Of a stretch of DNA of 64,000 nt, positions 23,120-45,361 are shown in pieces. The DNA is from Streptomyces humi (GTDB lineage: Bacteria; Actinomycetota; Actinomycetes; Streptomycetales; Streptomycetaceae), in assembly GCF_001005085.2 (NCBI RefSeq), contig NZ_LBMU02000071.1, forward strand, positions 1-64,000. Reading direction: 5' to 3'. Below the pieces are notes generated by a model. The model did not search any database. It saw only the letters and a program-made list of their open reading frames with translations, and had not been told where the DNA came from. The stretch's first letter is position 1. Each line of letters starts with the position of its first letter. The position numbers and the translations under genes are program-made.

Positions 23120-24292
23120 ATGGCAGAAGTACAGGCCGGAGTGGTGATCGTCGGTGCCGGCCCCGCAGGGCTCGTGCTGGGGAACCTGCTCCTGGACCGC
23201 GGCGTCGACTGCGTCGTCCTGGAGCGGCGGAGCCGGGCCGCGGTGGAGGGCCGGGCCCGCGCCGGATTCCTCGCGGCCCACTCCGTGCGCGTCCTCACCG
23301 AGAACGGCCTGGCGGCCGGTCTGCTCGCCCGCGGCAGGACCCACACCACCTGCCGGTTCCGCAGCGAGCGCGGCGAGTTCACCCTCGACTACGCCGGTCT
23401 GGGCCGCGGCGAGGTGCACACCGTCTACCCCCAGCAGGAACTGGTCCGCGACCTGGTCGCCGAGTTCCTGCGGCGCGGCGGCGACCTCAGGTTCGGCGTC
23501 GAGGCGGCGGACGTCACCGACGGCCGGGTCCGCCTCCGCGACGGCACGGACGTCACCGGCCGGTACGTCGCCGGCTGCGACGGACACCGGGGCGCCGGCC
23601 GCGCAGCCCTCACCGCCCGCGGTGTCCCTGCCGCCCGCTGGGACCACGGCGTCTCCTGGCTCGCCGTGCTGGCCGCCGCCCCGCCCAGCATGCCAGCCAC
23701 CGGATACGCCCTGCACGAGCGCGGCTTCGCCGGCCACATGGCGCGCACGGCCGCGGTCACCCGGTACTACCTCCAGTGCCCGCGCGGCACCGCCCCCGCC
23801 GACTGGAGCGAGGACCGGATCTGGGCCGAACTGGCGACCCGGATGCGCGCCGCCGAGTTCGGGCCGCTGCGCGAGGGCGCCGTCCTGGAGAAGACCGTCG
23901 TCGACCTCCGTTCCGACGTGCTGGAGTCCCCGGGCACCGGGCGGCTGTGGCTGGCCGGGGACGCGGCCGGGCTGATCAGCCCCTCGGCGGCCAAGGGCGC
24001 CAACCTCGCCGTGCTCCAGGCCGAGTCGCTGGCCCGCGCCTTCGAGGCGGTGCTGCTGCGCGGTGACGAGAGCGGCCTCGCCCGGTACGCCGCCGACTGC
24101 CTGCCCCGGGTGTGGCGGGCCCATGAGTTCTCGCACTGGATGAGCGGCCTGCTGCACGGCCCCGCCGACGCCGGCGACGGCGACCGGGACGAGGCCAGGT
24201 ACGGACGGGCGCTCCAGTACGCCCGGCTGGAGAGCCTGCGCACCTCCCGCCGCCACCAGGACTTCTTCGCCGAGAACTACACCGGCATCTGA
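23120..24292 (+). CDS. FAD-dependent monooxygenase, 4-hydroxybenzoate hydroxylase-like
   Basis: A 390-residue group A flavoprotein hydroxylase, the normal length for PobA-type enzymes. The dinucleotide fold is VVIVGAGPAGLVLGNLL followed by Glu in VVLERRS. The PobA-like RARAGFLAAHSV, the DG motif GCDGHRGAGR and the second FAD motif WLAGDAAGLISPSAAKG are visible. It should add a hydroxyl group ortho to a phenolic OH using NAD(P)H and oxygen. The start ATG follows AAGGCGGG. The next gene, 85 bp on, encodes a methyltransferase, suggesting hydroxylation then methylation of an aromatic compound (inference). Confidence 0.88.
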   Translation: MAEVQAGVVIVGAGPAGLVLGNLLLDRGVDCVVLERRSRAAVEGRARAGFLAAHSVRVLTENGLAAGLLARGRTHTTCRFRSERGEFTLDYAGLGRGEVHTVYPQQELVRDLVAEFLRRGGDLRFGVEAADVTDGRVRLRDGTDVTGRYVAGCDGHRGAGRAALTARGVPAARWDHGVSWLAVLAAAPPSMPATGYALHERGFAGHMARTAAVTRYYLQCPRGTAPADWSEDRIWAELATRMRAAEFGPLREGAVLEKTVVDLRSDVLESPGTGRLWLAGDAAGLISPSAAKGANLAVLQAESLARAFEAVLLRGDESGLARYAADCLPRVWRAHEFSHWMSGLLHGPADAGDGDRDEARYGRALQYARLESLRTSRRHQDFFAENYTGI

Positions 24293-24324
24293 TCCTCCGG
24301 GGCCCATGAGCCCCGGTTCTCCCC

Positions 24325-24366
24325 ACCTCACGATCAACACCTCACGATCAACACCTCACGATCAAC
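24325..24366 (+). repeat. 14-bp tandem repeat, three copies
   Basis: ACCTCACGATCAAC occurs three times in a row, immediately before the methyltransferase start codon. The copies occupy the leader where a ribosome-binding site would be expected, and only a weak ACGGGAA remains between the repeat and the ATG. Confidence 0.85.
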
Positions 24367-24377
24367 GGGAATTCTTC

Positions 24378-26012
24378 ATGAACCTCTCCGTCGTACAGCC
24401 ATGTCTGACGGAAACCGACCTGGACCGGATCCGGCACGCGGCCGACCACGTCCGCGGCCACGACACCGACCAGGTCCTCGCCGAGCTGCTGCCCCGCCTG
24501 ACCGCCGAGGACCGCGCCGACGTCGCCCGGCACCTCGGCTACGACCACACCGCCGTACTGGTCTTCCCCGCCTCCCTCGACGGGCTCGGCGACGAACTCC
24601 GGCGCGCCGGACTGGACCCGGGGCCGGTCGCCCCCAGCGTGGTGGTGCGCGGGCGGCTGGCCCGGCGCTACGGCGCGGCCCTCGCGGACAGCCGGGTCGG
24701 CATCGTGCACGTGCCCGTCGCCGGACGCACCGTGGAGATCTTCGCGCTGCCCGTACCGCCCGGCTCCCCGCTGGAGGCGGTCGCCGCCGACGAGCGCGCT
24801 GCCGGTCACGAGTCCCACCACGCCTTCGCCGTCACCGCACCGGGACGGGTGATCCCGGCCGGGCTGCGCACCCTGCTGACCGAACGCGCGGGCGCGGTCC
24901 CGGACGGCGGCGGCTACAACGACCACGAGAACGTCACCGTCCTCTACTTCCGCACCGCCCGGCACCGCCGCTTCGAACTGCGGCTGCCCGGCCGCCACGA
25001 GCCCGTCCCCGACCCCACCCTCGCCCTGCTCGGCGTGATGACCGGTGCCTGGGCCACCCAGGCCGTCCGCACCATGGCCGAACTCGGCCTCGCCGACCAC
25101 CTCGCCGCCCGCCCCGGTCTCGACGCCGGCACCCTCGCCGGGCTGACCGGCACCGACCCGGACGCGCTGCGCCGCCTGCTGCGCTACCTGGCCGGCCTCG
25201 GCCTGCTCACCGCCTCCGGCGCCACGTACCACCTCACCGCCCTCGGCGAACCCCTGCGCACCGGCGCCGAGTTCTCCCTGCACCCGCTCGCGCTGCTGTA
25301 CGGCGGCCCGTTCTACGACTCCTTCGCCGGGCTGCCGTACGCCGTACGCACCGGGCAGGAAGCTTTCGCCCACCGGCACGGGCAGCACCACTTCCGCCAC
25401 TTCGCCGAGCACCCCGAGCTCGGTGACCTCTTCCACCGGGGGATGGCGGCGAGCGCGGAGATGTTCACCCCGGTACCGCACCTGGCCGACTTCTCCGCCG
25501 CCCGGCGGGTGATCGACGTGGGCGGCGGGAACGGGGCGCTGCTCGGCCGGATCCTGCGGGCCCACGGCCACCTGGAGGGTGTCCTGCTGGAACGCCCGGA
25601 CGCGCTGGCGGCGGCCCGCCCCCGGCTGGCCGACCTCGCCGGCCGCTGTGCCTTCGTCCCCGGCGACTTCACGGAGTCGGTGCCCGACGGCGGTGACGTC
25701 TATCTCCTGTCCCGGGTCCTGCACGACTGGGACGACGACCGCTGCCGCACGATCCTGCGCCGCTGCGCGCGGGCGATGCGCCCCGGCACGGAACTCCTCC
25801 TGGTGGAACGCCTGCTGCCGGCCCACGAGGGCACCCCGTCCCCGACCCCGGCCTGGGACATCCACATGCTGTGCAACGTCGGCGGCCGGGAACGCGACGA
25901 GGCCCACTACCGACAACTACTGGAGGAGACGGGCTTCAAGCTGGAGAGCTGCCACGTTTTGCCCTTGGGAGCATCACTACTGCACGCCGTCCGCGTGGAC
26001 GAGCCTCTTTAG
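24378..26012 (+). CDS. O-methyltransferase with an N-terminal extra domain
   Basis: A 544-residue protein. Residues from about 212 to the end form a complete plant-COMT-type methyltransferase: a winged dimerisation part (VRTMAELGLADHLAARPGL), SAM motif I VIDVGGGNGALLG near residue 378, and the catalytic His region LHDWDDDRC near 446. Stand-alone relatives have about 340 residues. Residues 1-210 form an extra domain without a motif I recognise (RLGYD-like acidic helices, then GGYNDHENVTVLYFR). It follows the PobA-like hydroxylase gene and may modify its product. The 3' end runs into a dispersed repeat. Confidence 0.85.
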   Translation: MNLSVVQPCLTETDLDRIRHAADHVRGHDTDQVLAELLPRLTAEDRADVARHLGYDHTAVLVFPASLDGLGDELRRAGLDPGPVAPSVVVRGRLARRYGAALADSRVGIVHVPVAGRTVEIFALPVPPGSPLEAVAADERAAGHESHHAFAVTAPGRVIPAGLRTLLTERAGAVPDGGGYNDHENVTVLYFRTARHRRFELRLPGRHEPVPDPTLALLGVMTGAWATQAVRTMAELGLADHLAARPGLDAGTLAGLTGTDPDALRRLLRYLAGLGLLTASGATYHLTALGEPLRTGAEFSLHPLALLYGGPFYDSFAGLPYAVRTGQEAFAHRHGQHHFRHFAEHPELGDLFHRGMAASAEMFTPVPHLADFSAARRVIDVGGGNGALLGRILRAHGHLEGVLLERPDALAAARPRLADLAGRCAFVPGDFTESVPDGGDVYLLSRVLHDWDDDRCRTILRRCARAMRPGTELLLVERLLPAHEGTPSPTPAWDIHMLCNVGGRERDEAHYRQLLEETGFKLESCHVLPLGASLLHAVRVDEPL

Positions 26013-26142: not shown

Positions 26143-26240
26143 GCACGGCACGCCCCCGCCGGTCAGCCGGTCTGTGCACGGCACGCCCCGTCGGTCAGCC
26201 GGTCTGTACACGGGATGCTCCCGTCGGTCAGCCGGTCTGT
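26143..26240 (-). repeat. 33-bp tandem repeat covering a gene end
   Basis: Three units of 33, 32 and 33 bp, each ending GTCAGCCGGTCTGT, at 26143-26175, 26176-26207 and 26208-26240. The rightmost unit encodes the last residues and stop (GQTG, stop) of the aminotransferase, so the 3' end of the gene has been duplicated outward. Confidence 0.85.
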
Positions 26241-27904
26241 CCCATCCCCGCCGCATTGGGCCAGCTCTGCGCATTCGGCCACCCCGTCGCAGGCGCCGGC
26301 GACAACCCCGGCGCGGGCGGCGGCGCGGTGGCCCCCCGCACCTGCGCCGCGGTCAGCCCACCGCGGGCCGGCACCCCGGGGGGCGTCGGCCCGGTCGGCA
26401 TGGGCGCGGGGGCAGGCGCGGGCGCGGGCATCTGCGGCATCTGCATCGGCGGCGCGGGCGTCGGCGTCGGCGCCATCATCGGCTGCGGTGCCATCGGCGC
26501 CTGCATGGGCATCTGCATCTGAGCCGCCGCCGGCACCGGCACCGGAACCGGCGCCATCATCGGCTGCGGCACCCCCACCCCGCCGGACTGCCCGGCCATC
26601 GGCATGCCGAGACCGGCCGCGGCGGCCAGACCGGGCCCCGGCGCCGGTGCGAGGCTCGGGACCGGCCCCGCCCCCACGGCCTGCGCCAACTGCATCCCCG
26701 CCCCGTTCGTCTCGCTCACCAGCCGGTCGACGGCCGCCGTACCCGAGCTGTAGCTGGTCCCGTTGCCCAGCTCGGGTACGGCGGTTCCCCTCCTGGTCCC
26801 GTAGAGCACCTGCTCCATGGCGGACACCAGGCGACGCACGTCCACCTCGGGGCGTACCACGAGCCTCAGGAAGCGGCTGGAAGAACCGATCTTGTTGCCG
26901 CACTCGCGGACCAGGATCCGGTGCTCGGTGAGCATCCGGTCCCGGACCACGGTGCCCTCGGCGCCGACGGGAAGGCGCACGAAGAGGAAGTTGCCCTGCG
27001 AGGGGTAGACGGTCAGGCCGGGCAGCGCGGAGAGCTGGCTCGCCATCTCCAGCCGGTCCTTGCGGACCTGGAGCAGGCTCTGCGCGTACTCGGCGCCGTG
27101 CTCCTTGAGCATGAAGACGACGTACTCGGCGAACGCGTTGAGGTTCCACTTCGGCAGCATCGAGCGGACCTTGCCGGCCAGCGAGGGGTTGGCGACCATG
27201 TAGCCGAAACGGATGCCGTGCAGGCCGAAGTTCTTGCCGAGGCTGCGCAGCACGATGACGTTCGGCCGGATCATCGCCTCCTGCACGACGCTCGGCTCCT
27301 GTTCGGCGTCGGCGAACTCCAGGAACGACTCGTCGATGACGATGAGGTCCAGGTCGGCCATGGCGTCCATGAACTGGACGAGCGCGTGCTTGTGGAGGAA
27401 CCCGCCGTCGGGGTTGTTCGGATTGCAGATCACCGCGACCTTGGTCCCCCGGGTGCGGATGAAGTCGGCGTACTGCGCGAGGTCGAGGGCGAAGCCGCTG
27501 GACTCCTGGAGCGGGAACATGTCGACCCGCTTGCCGGTCTCCATGGGCTGGTCGGTCCAGCGGCCGAAGGTGGGGACGGGGATGGCGAGGGACTCGCGGA
27601 CCAGCAGGTGGTCGATCCAGGTGATCAGCTCGGTGGAGCCGTTGCCCATGGCGACGGCCTGCGGCGGGAGCTGGAGGAGGTTGCACAGCTCGGCGGTGAT
27701 GGTGTCGGCGCTGCTCGGGTAGAAGGTGATGATGTCCTTGAGCCGCGCGGCCATTGTTTCCATCATGGCCGGAGTGGGGAAATAGGGGTTACAGGGGATG
27801 CAGAAGTCAACCGGCCCGGTCCCGTCGCCTCCTTCGCGTGCCAGCGCCGCCATCGACGGGCTGTGAGCTCCGCTGCGGAACAACGAGGTGACGTTGCCGG
27901 CCAT
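26228..27904 (-). CDS. PLP-dependent aminotransferase with a low-complexity tail
   Basis: A 558-residue protein from ATG 27904, behind GGAGG. Residues 1-390 form a class I/II (HisC/CobD-like) aminotransferase: FCIPCNPYFPTPAM, GNGSTELITWIDHLL, ICNPNNPDGGFLHK, VIDESFLEF, and the PLP-binding Lys in RSLGKNFGLHGIRFGY. The final 170 residues are unusual: Met, Pro, Ala and Gln rich, with MQMPMQAPMAPQPMM and PAPAPAPAPMPTG, predicted disordered. The tail is in the same frame with no stop and uses the genus's codon bias. The substrate is unknown. No partner genes adjoin it; a 230-bp leader separates it from the epimerase gene. Confidence 0.88.
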   Translation of the reverse strand: MAGNVTSLFRSGAHSPSMAALAREGGDGTGPVDFCIPCNPYFPTPAMMETMAARLKDIITFYPSSADTITAELCNLLQLPPQAVAMGNGSTELITWIDHLLVRESLAIPVPTFGRWTDQPMETGKRVDMFPLQESSGFALDLAQYADFIRTRGTKVAVICNPNNPDGGFLHKHALVQFMDAMADLDLIVIDESFLEFADAEQEPSVVQEAMIRPNVIVLRSLGKNFGLHGIRFGYMVANPSLAGKVRSMLPKWNLNAFAEYVVFMLKEHGAEYAQSLLQVRKDRLEMASQLSALPGLTVYPSQGNFLFVRLPVGAEGTVVRDRMLTEHRILVRECGNKIGSSSRFLRLVVRPEVDVRRLVSAMEQVLYGTRRGTAVPELGNGTSYSSGTAAVDRLVSETNGAGMQLAQAVGAGPVPSLAPAPGPGLAAAAGLGMPMAGQSGGVGVPQPMMAPVPVPVPAAAQMQMPMQAPMAPQPMMAPTPTPAPPMQMPQMPAPAPAPAPMPTGPTPPGVPARGGLTAAQVRGATAPPPAPGLSPAPATGWPNAQSWPNAAGMGQTG

Positions 27905-39973: not shown

Positions 39974-40104
39974 TCGCGCCACCGAAGCCCCCTTCGGAAT
40001 ACCTCTGTTGGATCCTGTCCGAAGTCTTCCCCGGAGCTGTGCGTTCCTGTAGCCATGTGCGCGTAGGTGTTCGCCTCCGCTGGTCTCAGGGTCGGGAGAG
40101 CCGC

Positions 40105-42945
40105 ATGCTCCAGTCCGTCCGGTACCGCGTGCTGTCATGGCTCGCGGTCGTCAGCTGCCTAGCGTTCCTCTCCGGCGCCCTGACATCGTTGTCAGCCCGC
40201 GCCGCCACCACGACGTCCGCGCCGCCCGCCACCACGATCACCGTGGACGGGTCCGGTACCGGCCGCACCTTCGACGGCATCGGCGCCATCAGCGGCGGCG
40301 GAGGCAACTCCCGGCTGCTCGTCGACTACCCCGAGCCGCAACGCGGCCGCATCCTCGACTACCTCTTCAAGCCCGGCTACGGCGCCGCCCTGCAACTCCT
40401 CAAGGTGGAGATCGGCGGCGACACCAACTCCACGGACGGCTCCGAACCCAGCATCGAGCACACCCGGGGGACCGTGCACTGCGACAGCGGCTACGAGTGG
40501 TGGCTGATGGAGCAGGCCAAGAAGCGCAACCCCGGCATCAAGCTCTACGGCCTGGCCTGGGGCGCCCCCGGCTGGATAGGCAACACCGCCGACACCCCGG
40601 GCGGCGGCGACTTCTGGTCCCAGGACATGATCGACTACCTGGTCGACTGGCTCGGCTGCGCCCGGCAGCACGGCCTGGACATCGACTACCTGGGCGGCTG
40701 GAACGAACGCGGCTACGACATCGGCTGGTACGAGAAACTGCACGCCGCACTGGCCGCCCGGCACCTCCCGGTGCGGATCGTCGCCGCCGACTCCGGCCTG
40801 GACGTCGCCGACGACATCGCCAAGGACCCGCGGTTCGCCGACTCCGTCGACGCGGTGGGCGTGCACTACCCGTGCGAGGGCGGCGACGGCGGCAGCGCGA
40901 ACACCTGCTACAGCTCCGACACCGCCCAGGCCACCGGCAAACCCCTGTGGGCCAGCGAGAACGGCTCCCTCGACGCGGACACCGGCGCCGGCGCCCTGAT
41001 CCGCTCCATCACCCGCGGCTACCTCGACGGCAGGTACACCGCCTACCTCAACTGGCCCCTGCTGGCGGCGGTCTACCCCAACCTGCCGTACGACACGGTC
41101 GGCCTCGCGGTCGCGAACCAGCCGTGGTCCGGGGCGTACCGGCTGGGCACCAGCCTCTGGACCACCGCCCAGGTCACCCAGGTGACCCGTCCCGGCTGGC
41201 GGTTCGACGACCAGGCCAGTGGCTACCTGGGCGGCGACCGGGCCGACGGCAGCTACGTCACCCTCAAGCCCGCCGACAACTCCGCCTACAGCACGATCAT
41301 CGAGACCTCCACCGCGAGCAGCGCACGGACGGCGGACTTCACAGTGGGCGGCGGGCTGCCGGCCGGCACCGTGCACATCTGGGCCACCGACCTCACGTCG
41401 AACGGCCGCGGCTTCGTCCACACCGGTGACGTGGTACCCGAGGGCGGCCACTTCTCCGTCACGCTCCAGCCCGGTCACGTGTACTCCCTGACGACCACCA
41501 CCGGCCAGGGCCGGGGCACGGCCGTCAGCCCGCCGAGGCACCGGCTCGCGCTGCCGTACCGCGACTCCTTCGACCGGCCGGCCCCCGGCCGCGAGGCCAG
41601 GTACCTCTCGGACATGCAGGGTTCCTTCGAGACCGTGCGGTGCGGCGGCGGCCGGCCGGGGCGGTGCGTACGGCAGATGGCCGCCGAGCGGCCCATCGAG
41701 TGGCAGGACGACAGCGACGCGTTCGCGTTGCTCGGCGACACCGACTGGCGTGACTACACGGTCAGTTCCGACGTGTACCTGGAGCAGCCCGGCACCGTCG
41801 AACTCGTCGGCAGGGCCGGCGAACAGCAGCGTCCCCAGTCCCACCAGGCGGGTTACTTCCTGCGGGTCGCCGACACCGGTGCCTGGTCCGTCGTCAGGAG
41901 CGACACGGCCGGCCGGCTGACCACCCTCGCCGACGGCACCGCCCGCGCCCTGGGCACCCACCGCTGGCACAGCCTCGCCCTCGGCTTCAGCGGCACCACC
42001 ATCACCGCGAGCGTCGACGGCCGGCGGGTCGGCGCGGTGGACGACTCCGCGTATCCGGCCGGACAGGCCGGCATCGGCGTGGCCGGCTACCAGACCGACG
42101 AGTTCGACAACCTGAGCATCACCCCCGTACGCCGGCCCGCCGCGGCCCCCGCGACGCTCACGGCCGGCCTGCCCGCGACGGTCCGGCGGGGCGCGTCCGC
42201 GACCCTGACGACGACGTTCACCGTCCCACGGACCGGTACCGGGGCGACCACCGGTGCGGCGACCGGCCTCACGCTGACCCCTGGTGCCCCGGCGAACTGG
42301 CGGACCGTCCCGACCACGCCCGTGACCTTCGCCAGGGTCGCCCAAGGGCAGTCGGTCACGGCCAGCTGGACCGTCACCGCGCCGACGGCCACGGACACCC
42401 CGGTGACCAACACCTTCACGCCGCTCGCCACGTACCACCGGGAAGGCGTGCGGCACTGGACGTACGGCGGCGCGAGCACCCGGGTACCGATCCCGGCGCC
42501 CACCGGCAACCCGTATGCGAGCGAGCTGTCCTTCGTATCCGCCGACAACGGGTGGGGGCCGGTCGAGCGGGACATGTCCAACGGCGAGCAGGCGGCGGGG
42601 GACGGACGGCCGATGAGCATCCGGGGCGTCGCCTTCGCCAAGGGGGTCGGCGCGCACGCCGCCGGCGACGTGGGCCTGTACCTCGGCGGCGACTGCAACC
42701 GGTTCACCGCCACGGTCGGCGTCGACGACGAGGTCGCGCCGTACGGCTCGGTCGTCTTCTCCCTGGTCGGGGACGGCCGCACGCTGGCGACGACCGACGT
42801 ACTGACCGGGGAGTCGGCGGGGCTGCCGCTGGACGTCGACGTCACCGGCGTCCAGGAGCTGCATCTCGTCGTCGGGGACGGCGGGGACGGGAACGCGCAT
42901 GATCACGCGGACTGGGGTGGGGCGAGGCTCGCCTGCGCCGGATAG
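40105..42945 (+). CDS. Secreted GH59-type galactosidase with NPCBM domain
   Basis: A 946-residue protein from ATG 40105 (CGGGAG upstream). Residues 1-33 form a signal peptide. The catalytic part is of the galactocerebrosidase (GH59) type: FDGIGAISGGGGNSRLLVDYP, LFKPGYGAALQLLKVEIGGD, with Glu in GGWNERGYD and Glu in LWASENGS as likely acid/base and nucleophile. A lectin-like region follows (about residues 480-670), then a NEW3-type domain (about 690-800). The NPCBM module closes the protein (LSFVSADNGWGPVERDMS, GVGAHAAGDVGLYL). Bacterial substrates are probably beta-galactosides of plant or fungal origin. Confidence 0.87.
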   Translation: MLQSVRYRVLSWLAVVSCLAFLSGALTSLSARAATTTSAPPATTITVDGSGTGRTFDGIGAISGGGGNSRLLVDYPEPQRGRILDYLFKPGYGAALQLLKVEIGGDTNSTDGSEPSIEHTRGTVHCDSGYEWWLMEQAKKRNPGIKLYGLAWGAPGWIGNTADTPGGGDFWSQDMIDYLVDWLGCARQHGLDIDYLGGWNERGYDIGWYEKLHAALAARHLPVRIVAADSGLDVADDIAKDPRFADSVDAVGVHYPCEGGDGGSANTCYSSDTAQATGKPLWASENGSLDADTGAGALIRSITRGYLDGRYTAYLNWPLLAAVYPNLPYDTVGLAVANQPWSGAYRLGTSLWTTAQVTQVTRPGWRFDDQASGYLGGDRADGSYVTLKPADNSAYSTIIETSTASSARTADFTVGGGLPAGTVHIWATDLTSNGRGFVHTGDVVPEGGHFSVTLQPGHVYSLTTTTGQGRGTAVSPPRHRLALPYRDSFDRPAPGREARYLSDMQGSFETVRCGGGRPGRCVRQMAAERPIEWQDDSDAFALLGDTDWRDYTVSSDVYLEQPGTVELVGRAGEQQRPQSHQAGYFLRVADTGAWSVVRSDTAGRLTTLADGTARALGTHRWHSLALGFSGTTITASVDGRRVGAVDDSAYPAGQAGIGVAGYQTDEFDNLSITPVRRPAAAPATLTAGLPATVRRGASATLTTTFTVPRTGTGATTGAATGLTLTPGAPANWRTVPTTPVTFARVAQGQSVTASWTVTAPTATDTPVTNTFTPLATYHREGVRHWTYGGASTRVPIPAPTGNPYASELSFVSADNGWGPVERDMSNGEQAAGDGRPMSIRGVAFAKGVGAHAAGDVGLYLGGDCNRFTATVGVDDEVAPYGSVVFSLVGDGRTLATTDVLTGESAGLPLDVDVTGVQELHLVVGDGGDGNAHDHADWGGARLACAG

Positions 42946-42986
42946 ACCCACGAGCGGCCCGCGCCCCCGCGGGGGCCCGGGCGGGC

Positions 42987-43250
42987 CTCTTCCGGGTCCA
43001 GGGCCTCTTCCGGGTCCGGGGCCTCTTCCGGGTCCGGGGCCTCTTCCGGGTCCGGGTCCTCTACCGGGTCCGGAGCCTCTACCGGGCCCGGGGTCCGTAG
43101 CGGGTCCGGAGCCTCTTCCGGGTCCGGAGCCTCTACCGGGCCCGGGGTCCGTAGCGGGCCCGGGGTCCGTAGCGGGCCCGGGGTCCCTAGCGGGCCCGGG
43201 CCCCTACCGAGTCCGGGGCCCCTACCGAGTGCGGGGTCCCTACCGGGCCC
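42987..43250. repeat. 18-bp minisatellite between convergent genes
   Basis: About 14 head-to-tail copies of an 18-bp unit. Variants include CTCTTCCGGGTCCGGGGC, CTCTACCGGGCCCGGGGT and CCGTAGCGGGCCCGGGGT, and they alternate in blocks, a sign of unequal exchange. The array lies between the converging GH59 and serine-hydrolase genes. The last unit supplies the CTA that reads as TAG, the stop codon of the hydrolase. Palindromic CGGGCCCG cores can fold. Confidence 0.9.
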
Positions 43251-44397
43251 GCGCCGCCCTGTGCACGGCCAGGGCCAGCCGGTCGTTCTCCGGGGCCGCC
43301 CCGCCCGGGAACGCGAAGCGGCGCCTCGTGTAGCCGTAGGCGAGGCCGCTCCGTGGGTCCGCGAACGCCTGGGAGCCCGCAGCGCCGCTGTGCCCGATCG
43401 TGCCGGCGCCCAGGAACGGGTGCCAGACGTCCGCCGTCGCCTGGAAGCCCAGGCCGTACGCCTTGTGGGTGCGAGCCACGAGGTCGTACCCCACCGAGTG
43501 GAACTGCCCGAACTCCGCCACCGTGTCCTCCTTCAGCAGCGGCGCCTTGCCGTCGACCTCGCTGAGCAGCGCCGCGTACATCCCGGCCAGACCGCGCGCC
43601 GACGCCACCCCGCCGAACGACGCCGGGCCCTTCGCCCGCACCAGCCGGTCGTTCGGAAGGGCGTCCAGGGCGGTCGGCTCGGCCGCGTGCTCGTTGAAGG
43701 CGATCGCGGCGAGCGTGTGCGGCCCGGACGGGACGGAGTCCAGGAGCGCCTGCTCCGCGGGCGTCGGGCGCAACGGCTGGACGGTGCGGAACCGCGGTTC
43801 CTGCGCGGCCGGCAGGCCCAGGAAGAACCCGAGGCCGTACGGCGCCCGGACCCGCTCCTCGTACACGTCCTGGAGGGTGCGGCCGGTGGCCCGCCGCACC
43901 ACCTCGCCGGTGAGCGCCCCGATGACGAGGGCGTGGTAGCCGAAGGCGGAGCCGGGCCGCCAGAACGGCCGCTGGTCGGCGAGGCGTTCGGCCATCGCCC
44001 GGTCGTCGGCCAGCTCCCGCGGGCCGAACCCGGTGTCGGTGCCGATCAGGCCGGCCCGGTGCGCGACCAGCTCCCGCAACGTCAGCGCGCCCTTGCCCTC
44101 CGCTGCGAACTCCGGCCAGTAGTAGGTGACTTTGCGGTCGAGCTCCAGCGTGCCGTCCTGCACCAGCATCGCCACCACCAGGTGCGCGGCCCCCTTGGTG
44201 GACGAGAACACCCCGTACAGGGAGTCCCCGTCGGCTCCCTCACCGGCCCACAGGTCGACGACCCGCCGGCCGTGGACGTACGCGCACAGCTGCCCCTCGT
44301 AGTCGGCCGGTCCCTCGGCGACGAACGCGGCGAACTCCTCGCGCACCGCCTCGAAGCCCTCCGCGACCGTGCCCTGGACGGTGATCTCCTGAGTCAT
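43240..44397 (-). CDS. Serine hydrolase (class C beta-lactamase/EstB family)
   Basis: A 385-residue cytoplasmic protein without signal peptide. Penicillin-binding-type motifs: SxxK as FSSTKGA, the Tyr of the second motif in FGYHALVIG, and HSGAAG as the third. Such members act as esterases or D-aminopeptidases rather than beta-lactamases; this is inferred from the family. The stop codon lies inside the adjacent 18-bp repeat array, so the last two or three residues vary with array sequence. Confidence 0.9.
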   Translation of the reverse strand: MTQEITVQGTVAEGFEAVREEFAAFVAEGPADYEGQLCAYVHGRRVVDLWAGEGADGDSLYGVFSSTKGAAHLVVAMLVQDGTLELDRKVTYYWPEFAAEGKGALTLRELVAHRAGLIGTDTGFGPRELADDRAMAERLADQRPFWRPGSAFGYHALVIGALTGEVVRRATGRTLQDVYEERVRAPYGLGFFLGLPAAQEPRFRTVQPLRPTPAEQALLDSVPSGPHTLAAIAFNEHAAEPTALDALPNDRLVRAKGPASFGGVASARGLAGMYAALLSEVDGKAPLLKEDTVAEFGQFHSVGYDLVARTHKAYGLGFQATADVWHPFLGAGTIGHSGAAGSQAFADPRSGLAYGYTRRRFAFPGGAAPENDRLALAVHRAARAR

Positions 44398-44572: not shown

Positions 44573-45361
44573 ATGCGTGATCTCGGGGCGGGTTTCGGAT
44601 ATCTCCTCAAGGGCCAGCGGTGGGTGGGCAGGCACGGCAGGCAGTTCGGTTTCGGACTGCTGCCCGGCCTGATCACCCTGGTCCTCTACGCTGCGGCGCT
44701 GGTCGCGCTGGCCCTGTGGGGTGCGGATCTCGTCGCCTGGGCCACCCCGTTCGCCGACGACTGGTCCAGCCCCTGGCAGGGCCTCTTCCGGGGCCTCCTC
44801 ACCGCCGTCCTGTTCGCCCTCGGCCTCCTCGGCGCCGTCCTCACCTTCACCGCGGTGACCCTGCTGGTCGGCCAGCCGTTCTACGAGAACCTCTCCGAGA
44901 AGGTCGACGCGGACGTCTCGCCCGACGGCACCGCGCCCGAGTCCGGGCTGCCGTTCTGGCGCGAGCTGTGGATATCGGCCCGCGACAGCCTGCGCGTCCT
45001 GGTCCGCGCCGCGCTCTGGGGCCTGCTCCTCTTCGCCCTCGGCTTCCTGCCCTTCGTCGGCCAGACGGTCGTACCCGTCGTCGGGTTCTTCGTGACCGGC
45101 TTCTTCCTCACCGAGGAACTCGCCGCCGTCGCCCTCCAGCGCCGGGGTGTCGACCTGCGCGCCCGGCTCGCCCTGCTGCGCTCCCGCAAGACCCTGGTGT
45201 GGGGCTTCGGCACCCCGCTGGGCCTCGCCTTCCTGGTCCCGTTCGTCGCGGTGTTCCTGATGCCGGGCGCGGTCGCGGGTGCCACACTCCTCGCCCGCGA
45301 CCTGCTGGGCGAGGAGACGGCGGACGAGGACCAACGGGCCGGCGAACCCGTCAGCTCCTGA
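44573..45361 (+). CDS. EI24/CysZ-type membrane protein
   Basis: A 262-residue protein with four or five membrane helices: GLLPGLITLVLYAAALVALALWG, TAVLFALGLLGAVLTFTAV, LWGLLLFALGFLPFVGQTVVPVVGFFV and LGLAFLVPFVAVFLMPG. The central VGQPFYENLSEKVD is typical of the EI24 family; members in enterobacteria (CysZ) move sulfate. Transport of sulfate here is not shown by context. Its last 11 bases overlap the converging C15-like gene. Confidence 0.85.
   Translation: MRDLGAGFGYLLKGQRWVGRHGRQFGFGLLPGLITLVLYAAALVALALWGADLVAWATPFADDWSSPWQGLFRGLLTAVLFALGLLGAVLTFTAVTLLVGQPFYENLSEKVDADVSPDGTAPESGLPFWRELWISARDSLRVLVRAALWGLLLFALGFLPFVGQTVVPVVGFFVTGFFLTEELAAVALQRRGVDLRARLALLRSRKTLVWGFGTPLGLAFLVPFVAVFLMPGAVAGATLLARDLLGEETADEDQRAGEPVSS

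Follow-up and report, generated by a model that had tools for sequence, protein, structure and literature searches.

Prokaryotic satellites and minisatellites have been defined as arrays of 10–200 nt units in at least four copies (BMC Evol Biol 2019; PMC6749651). That paper reports intergenic satellites in several species and lists Streptomyces coelicolor with 38 satellites in 9.05 Mb (the table columns being inferred); the words ‘stop codon’ are absent from its text. The array described here differs from those satellites in spanning a stop codon and in having diverged units. The repeats of Borg elements (PLoS Biol 2023; PMC9879509) are perfect and A-rich and belong to archaeal extrachromosomal elements, whereas the present array has GC-rich, diverged units. 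GTAG-tagged REP elements (BMC Genomics 2013; PMC3733652) resemble the array in their short palindromic units, some with GTAG; unlike them, the array is undispersed, has a head-to-tail 18-bp period and belongs to a genome in which a Y1 transposase was not found. With VNTR/MLVA typing loci it shares a multi-copy array of short units with block structure. Among the literature matches listed, none dealt with this locus or with Streptomyces arrays that span stop codons.

The window, the whole stretch of 64,000 nt that was analysed, lies on a 69-kb contig of the Streptomyces humi genome (10.0 Mb in 214 contigs). TRF reports a period of 18 with 15.0 copies (269 bp; Table 1), also read with periods of 36 and 54, and the score of 265 is the highest among the 29 TRF rows for the window. 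The array seen in the sequence-only reading is thus real, with 15 units rather than ‘about 14’ and with limits slightly wider than the proposed 42987–43250. Its 15 head-to-tail copies of an 18-bp unit place it within the minisatellite definition (a unit of 10–200 nt repeated head to tail four or more times), and it looks like an ordinary minisatellite of known kind. The blockwise variants noted in that reading are also evident among the many unit variants. Units 1–4 differ at one varying base, units 2–4 being identical, and unit 5 is intermediate in sequence. Units 6–7 recur 54 bp further along as units 9–10 with one difference, and units 10–12 and 13–15 form further blocks. One base is absent between units 12 and 13, the final base of unit 12 (43198) being common to unit 13. 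A two-unit 26-bp pattern (up to three mismatches) matches eight times in the array and once elsewhere in the window, whereas 100 shuffles gave 0.00 matches on average, and CGGGCCCG occurs six times in the array and 20 times in the window (12.75 expected; one of 100 shuffles reaches 20).

Table 1. Features of the array and its surroundings (window coordinates).
Feature	Coordinates	Strand	Basis or remarks
GH59-family (galactocerebrosidase-like) glycosidase, C-terminal NPCBM domain	40039..42945	+	ORF and Pfam
GC-rich hairpin past the GH59 stop, candidate terminator without T run	42956..42987	+	51-nt fold, −33.3 kcal/mol
Minisatellite, 15 units × 18 bp	42983..43251	no strand	TRF, units written out
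Units 1–4, GGGCCTCTTCCGGGTCCR, without stop in the hydrolase register	42983..43054	no strand	
Units 5–12, mixed block, 36-bp pair (6–7) repeated as 9–10	43055..43197	no strand	
Units 13–15, in-register hydrolase TAG in each	43198..43251	no strand	
Hydrolase stop codon TAG, within unit 15	43240..43242	−	
Beta-lactamase-family serine hydrolase, 385 aa	43240..44397	−	PF00144, E 6.8e-49
EI24/CysZ-family gene, beyond the hydrolase	44573..45361		

The array lies between converging genes, as had been read from the sequence, and the hydrolase stop is indeed in the terminal unit. The GH59-family gene matches PF02057 (E 1e-106), PF08305 (E 1.8e-48) and PF21708 (E 4.7e-21); its start codon is uncertain, and a home-made predictor places it at 40105. 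An ORF with Pro-Gly repeats (42899–43333, plus strand) was taken as spurious, since it is without a Pfam match and overlaps both genes.

The last three sense codons of the hydrolase (CGG GCC CGG) are also array sequence, and a TAG in the hydrolase register is found in seven of the 15 units (5, 6, 9 and 12–15). We modelled 15 contractions by removing units from the hydrolase side. The protein keeps its 385 residues in six, reaches 391–397 residues in four (6–12 more) and becomes 428–452 residues long in the five in which at least 11 units are lost (43–67 more); none of the 15 shortens it. Gaining units, or losing internal ones while unit 15 is retained, should leave the hydrolase unaltered. The earlier proposal that the array could extend or shorten the protein is therefore weakened: the modelled changes are mostly of 0–12 residues (10 of 15) and shortening is not among them, although one orthologue is extended (see below). 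The in-register stops and the mild contraction outcomes together suggest that the array buffers the end of the hydrolase rather than controls it, and this array looks like one that leaves its protein nearly as it was.

Conserved gene order allowed a comparison with an array-free locus. With flanks of 1.5 kb, a GH59 gene adjoins the hydrolase at one of 30 hydrolase loci, the window's own. Of 272 GH59 loci in named genomes, the best 80 (flanks of up to 4 kb, some shorter) include one with an adjacent hydrolase: L073, from the metagenome-assembled genome Streptomyces sp. SH_71_13. The corresponding locus of G396 is identical to it (100% over 3434 bp), so that a single syntenic relative is available rather than two. 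The GH59, hydrolase and EI24-family genes occur in the same order in L073 and the window; identity is 89% and 93% in the two flanks (182 and 134 bp) and 91% between the hydrolases. TRF finds no array in the 158-bp spacer of L073, so the array is absent at the same site in this one relative. The L073 hydrolase ends at the same residue (about 385), with TGA in place of TAG. The array is thus not needed to place the stop, which together with the TAG in seven units weakens the earlier claim that the array supplies the stop codon. A GH59 3′ end was found at E ≤ 1e-90 in seven of 392 genus genomes: the window's, G396 and five at 77–79% identity. By eye, none of these five has a comparable array in the 300 bases past the GH59 stop; one (L149) seemingly carries a short two-copy duplication there.

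In the L073 spacer CCGGGTTCGGCCTTGACG precedes CCGGGTGCGG, and CCGGGTTCGG and CCGGGTGCGG form a pair that agrees at nine of ten positions at an offset of 18 nt, a level attained by 36 of 2000 dinucleotide shuffles. The stretch resembles the window unit weakly and no more than by chance (18 of 28 positions; 189 of 2000 shuffles reach this). As the 18-nt offset was chosen after looking at the sequence, an L073-like spacer repeat as the seed of the array is a lead only.

We consider it probable that the array is a selectively near-neutral minisatellite of a 3′–3′ spacer, grown by slippage, in which in-register units buffer the stop; most likely it is neutral and recently expanded. An 18-bp GC-rich segment of the local spacer would have grown by repeated slippage or unequal recombination, a gain here rather than a loss in the relative. 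Growth would have begun beside the 3′ arm of the hairpin past the GH59 stop; this arm extends into unit 1, consistent with, though no proof of, seeding of the array at a terminator. Multi-unit duplications would have come later, and the array would have reached and then covered the last hydrolase codons and the stop. With a unit length divisible by three and an in-register TAG in roughly half of the units, gains and losses would change the ancestral length of the hydrolase little or not at all.

Alternatively, the array may be a bidirectional terminator or roadblock that limits antisense read-through, its copy number tuning the strength and its pseudo-palindromic units folding in the GH59 transcript, perhaps also as DNA cruciforms. 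The spacer folds below its shuffles on both strands (plus strand, z −2.34, 2 of 100; minus strand, z −1.72, 3 of 100), and the block 43145–43198 as plus-strand RNA reaches −45.5 kcal/mol (z −5.15, a value equalled by none of 200 shuffles). Shuffling is a lenient control here, since tandem self-complementary GC-rich units fold well by that alone. Noncoding arrays in the four-genome sample described below were also densest between converging genes, with 57 in 45.0 kb, compared with 112 in 146.2 kb between codirectional genes and 46 in 71.5 kb between divergent ones (27 arrays at fragment edges fall outside these classes). Against this, the same block is ordinary as minus-strand RNA (z −1.10, 24 of 200 shuffles), and the blocks 43001–43054 and 43073–43126 give z −1.81 (9 of 200) and z −0.47 (59 of 200). 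The folding suggested from the sequence is supported to some extent. The hairpin at the GH59 stop is not clearly beyond its shuffles (31 of 200 as good; 20 of 200 on the other strand). A simple scan of 42900–43320 gave no intrinsic terminator (GC hairpin plus T run) and no terminator- or promoter-like consensus site, no Rfam family matched 42800–43400 up to E 1, and L073 manages without an array. We therefore regard a terminator function as unlikely.

The position of the stop inside the array could instead suggest a contingency-like switch, in which the number of units alters the C-terminus and the activity of the hydrolase. A hydrolase match of some kind was present in 198 of 199 genomes, and we compared 55 orthologous 3′ ends from 52 genomes (three counted twice); the set comprises 50 loci among the most similar plus L073 and L189, some similar loci being left out. 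Estimated orthologue lengths are 381–394 residues, with L218 the exception (∼403), and the 385 residues of the window protein are typical. TRF arrays cover this stop in four of the 52 genomes, the window included. L019 (G106) has an 18-bp unit in 3.2 copies with an in-frame TGA in each, L217 (G188) has a weak array (score 60) and L218 (G152) has a 20-bp unit in 3.2 copies with the C-terminus replaced. The sequences in these three of 51 other orthologues, one of them weak, differ from that of the window, and the arrays were therefore taken as independent. L218 suggests that protein extension by a stop-spanning array is possible in principle, and the modelled loss of at least 11 units would have a like effect; most modelled contractions, however, change nothing or add 6–12 residues. 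The last few residues vary among the compared orthologues, so that small C-terminal changes look tolerated. A switch of this kind is very improbable, and the near-neutral minisatellite remains the preferred reading.

An error of assembly, in copy number or by a wrong join, might be considered in a genome of 214 contigs, and the identical units 2–4 could have been collapsed or expanded. The array, however, is 269 bp long with many unit variants and lies inside the 69-kb contig, and its flanking genes and the EI24-family gene recur in the same order in L073; we give this explanation very little weight.

Searches for copies outside the array bear on a mobile origin. BLAST of the array region against its own genome returned the array itself, an inverted self-match and four similar GC-rich arrays, on C112 (83% over 78 bp), C203, C24 and C133, for which TRF gives other units; a sequence source shared with these is conceivable. 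Mismatch-free matches of two unit-type patterns occur in this genome only in the array. PF01797 (Y1 transposase), a model that we take to stand for RAYT-type transposases, had no match in the genome, with the control search positive in five of 14 genomes. A REP-like or mobile repeat with GTAG-bearing palindromic units akin to GTAG-REP elements, which are short palindromes (PMC3733652) and which units 7, 10 and 11 recall in that GTAG adjoins GGGYCC, is thus largely refuted and the least probable of the explanations, since matches outside the array are about as frequent as with reversed patterns (six with two mismatches against six for one pattern, seven with three mismatches against five for the other), so that dispersed intergenic copies are not evident. 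The array is a real, locus-specific minisatellite.

The array region found matches in 154 of 199 genomes, and we inspected 33 loci, four from the own genome and 29 among the matches listed from genus genomes. We rejected a genus-wide family of one array, as the loci inspected are mostly hydrolase 3′ ends or other GC-rich units. Ten of the 33 are the hydrolase 3′ end (L041, L048–L050, L052–L054, L058, L060 and L062), L041 carrying the G106 array; nearly all others are GC-rich runs with units of 6 bp, 18 bp or 30–42 bp, many in long ORFs. Two arrays, each between converging genes, appear to be noncoding. One (L040:1483–1669, G164) is GC-rich, with an 18-bp unit in 10.4 copies just past a response-regulator stop; the other (L057:1501–1578, G087) has the 19-bp unit CGGTAGGGGCCCCGGACGC in 4.1 copies between EPSP-synthase-family and ABC transporter genes and by eye resembles units 13–14 of the window, the locus being unrelated. 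By eye, L038, considered as a further convergent noncoding case, appears to be a Pro/Gly-rich insert, in frame, within an alpha/beta hydrolase and was rejected, and the L046 array appears to consist of coding repeats at a C-terminus encoded on the minus strand. L038 and L040 have the repeat sequence alone in common, not the flanks; neither L046 nor L057 matches L040.

To place the array in context, arrays and 1330 genes from a home-made predictor were compared in a four-genome sample of 1.66 Mb, made up of the window, 400 kb of its own genome (G000) and 400 kb from each of G106, G188 and G109. Arrays are ordinary here, with 157 distinct ones in 464 kb; this frequency, their density between converging genes and their presence over stops rather than starts (see below) favour the near-neutral reading. 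The present array is large for its surroundings: it is the fourth longest of 242 noncoding arrays, and its 15 copies of 18 bp exceed the 11.1 at the top of the copy-number list, in which an array is entered only with its best-scoring period. Counting a stop as inside an array when at least 6 nt of array lie on each side, we found 31 (19.7 expected; four of 500 random shifts reach 31), of which the window contributes three, the present array included. By genome the counts are ten for G000 (6.33 expected; 51 of 500 shifts reach it), 11 for G106 (7.61; 88 of 500), seven for G188 (3.0; 15 of 500) and three for G109 (2.72; 261 of 500). Starts lie inside arrays in three cases against 19.65 expected, predicted starts being less certain than stops. 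The sample was not blind, as the G000 contigs were taken for array-like BLAST matches and G106 and G188 for their arrays at the hydrolase gene, and mere avoidance of coding sequence would suffice to collect arrays at gene edges; owing to these effects and to the uncertain starts, the stop excess is a lead. It could also reflect function rather than tolerance, which qualifies the neutrality proposed above. The period is divisible by three in 15 of the 31 stop-spanning arrays, in 252 of 274 mostly coding arrays and in 124 of 242 noncoding arrays.

Two further arrays in the window were noted. At 26143–26240 a 33-bp unit in 3.0 copies (score 154) crosses the stop of a predicted gene (26228–27754, minus strand), the same arrangement as at the present array. 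At 24324–24366 three perfect copies of the 14-bp CACCTCACGATCAA lie between the plus-strand predicted genes 23141–24292 and 24378–26012, just upstream of the latter, and are possibly operator-like repeats.

By itself, a locus-specific minisatellite is of little consequence; it is a clean example of an array that covers a stop codon with the protein little affected, and it may serve as a typing locus if variable. The excess of arrays at stops over starts in the four-genome samples makes a simple, testable statement on C-terminus evolution in high-GC bacteria. More speculatively, and in our view doubtfully, stop-spanning minisatellites may be a general trait of gene ends in Streptomyces, shaped by selection and acting as stop-codon buffers or as suppliers of tails. 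If so, units of a multiple of three with an in-frame stop would make slippage in 3′–3′ spacers harmless, off-register arrays would supply new C-terminal tails, and the hydrolase family would contain both outcomes, buffered in the window and G106 and extended in G152.
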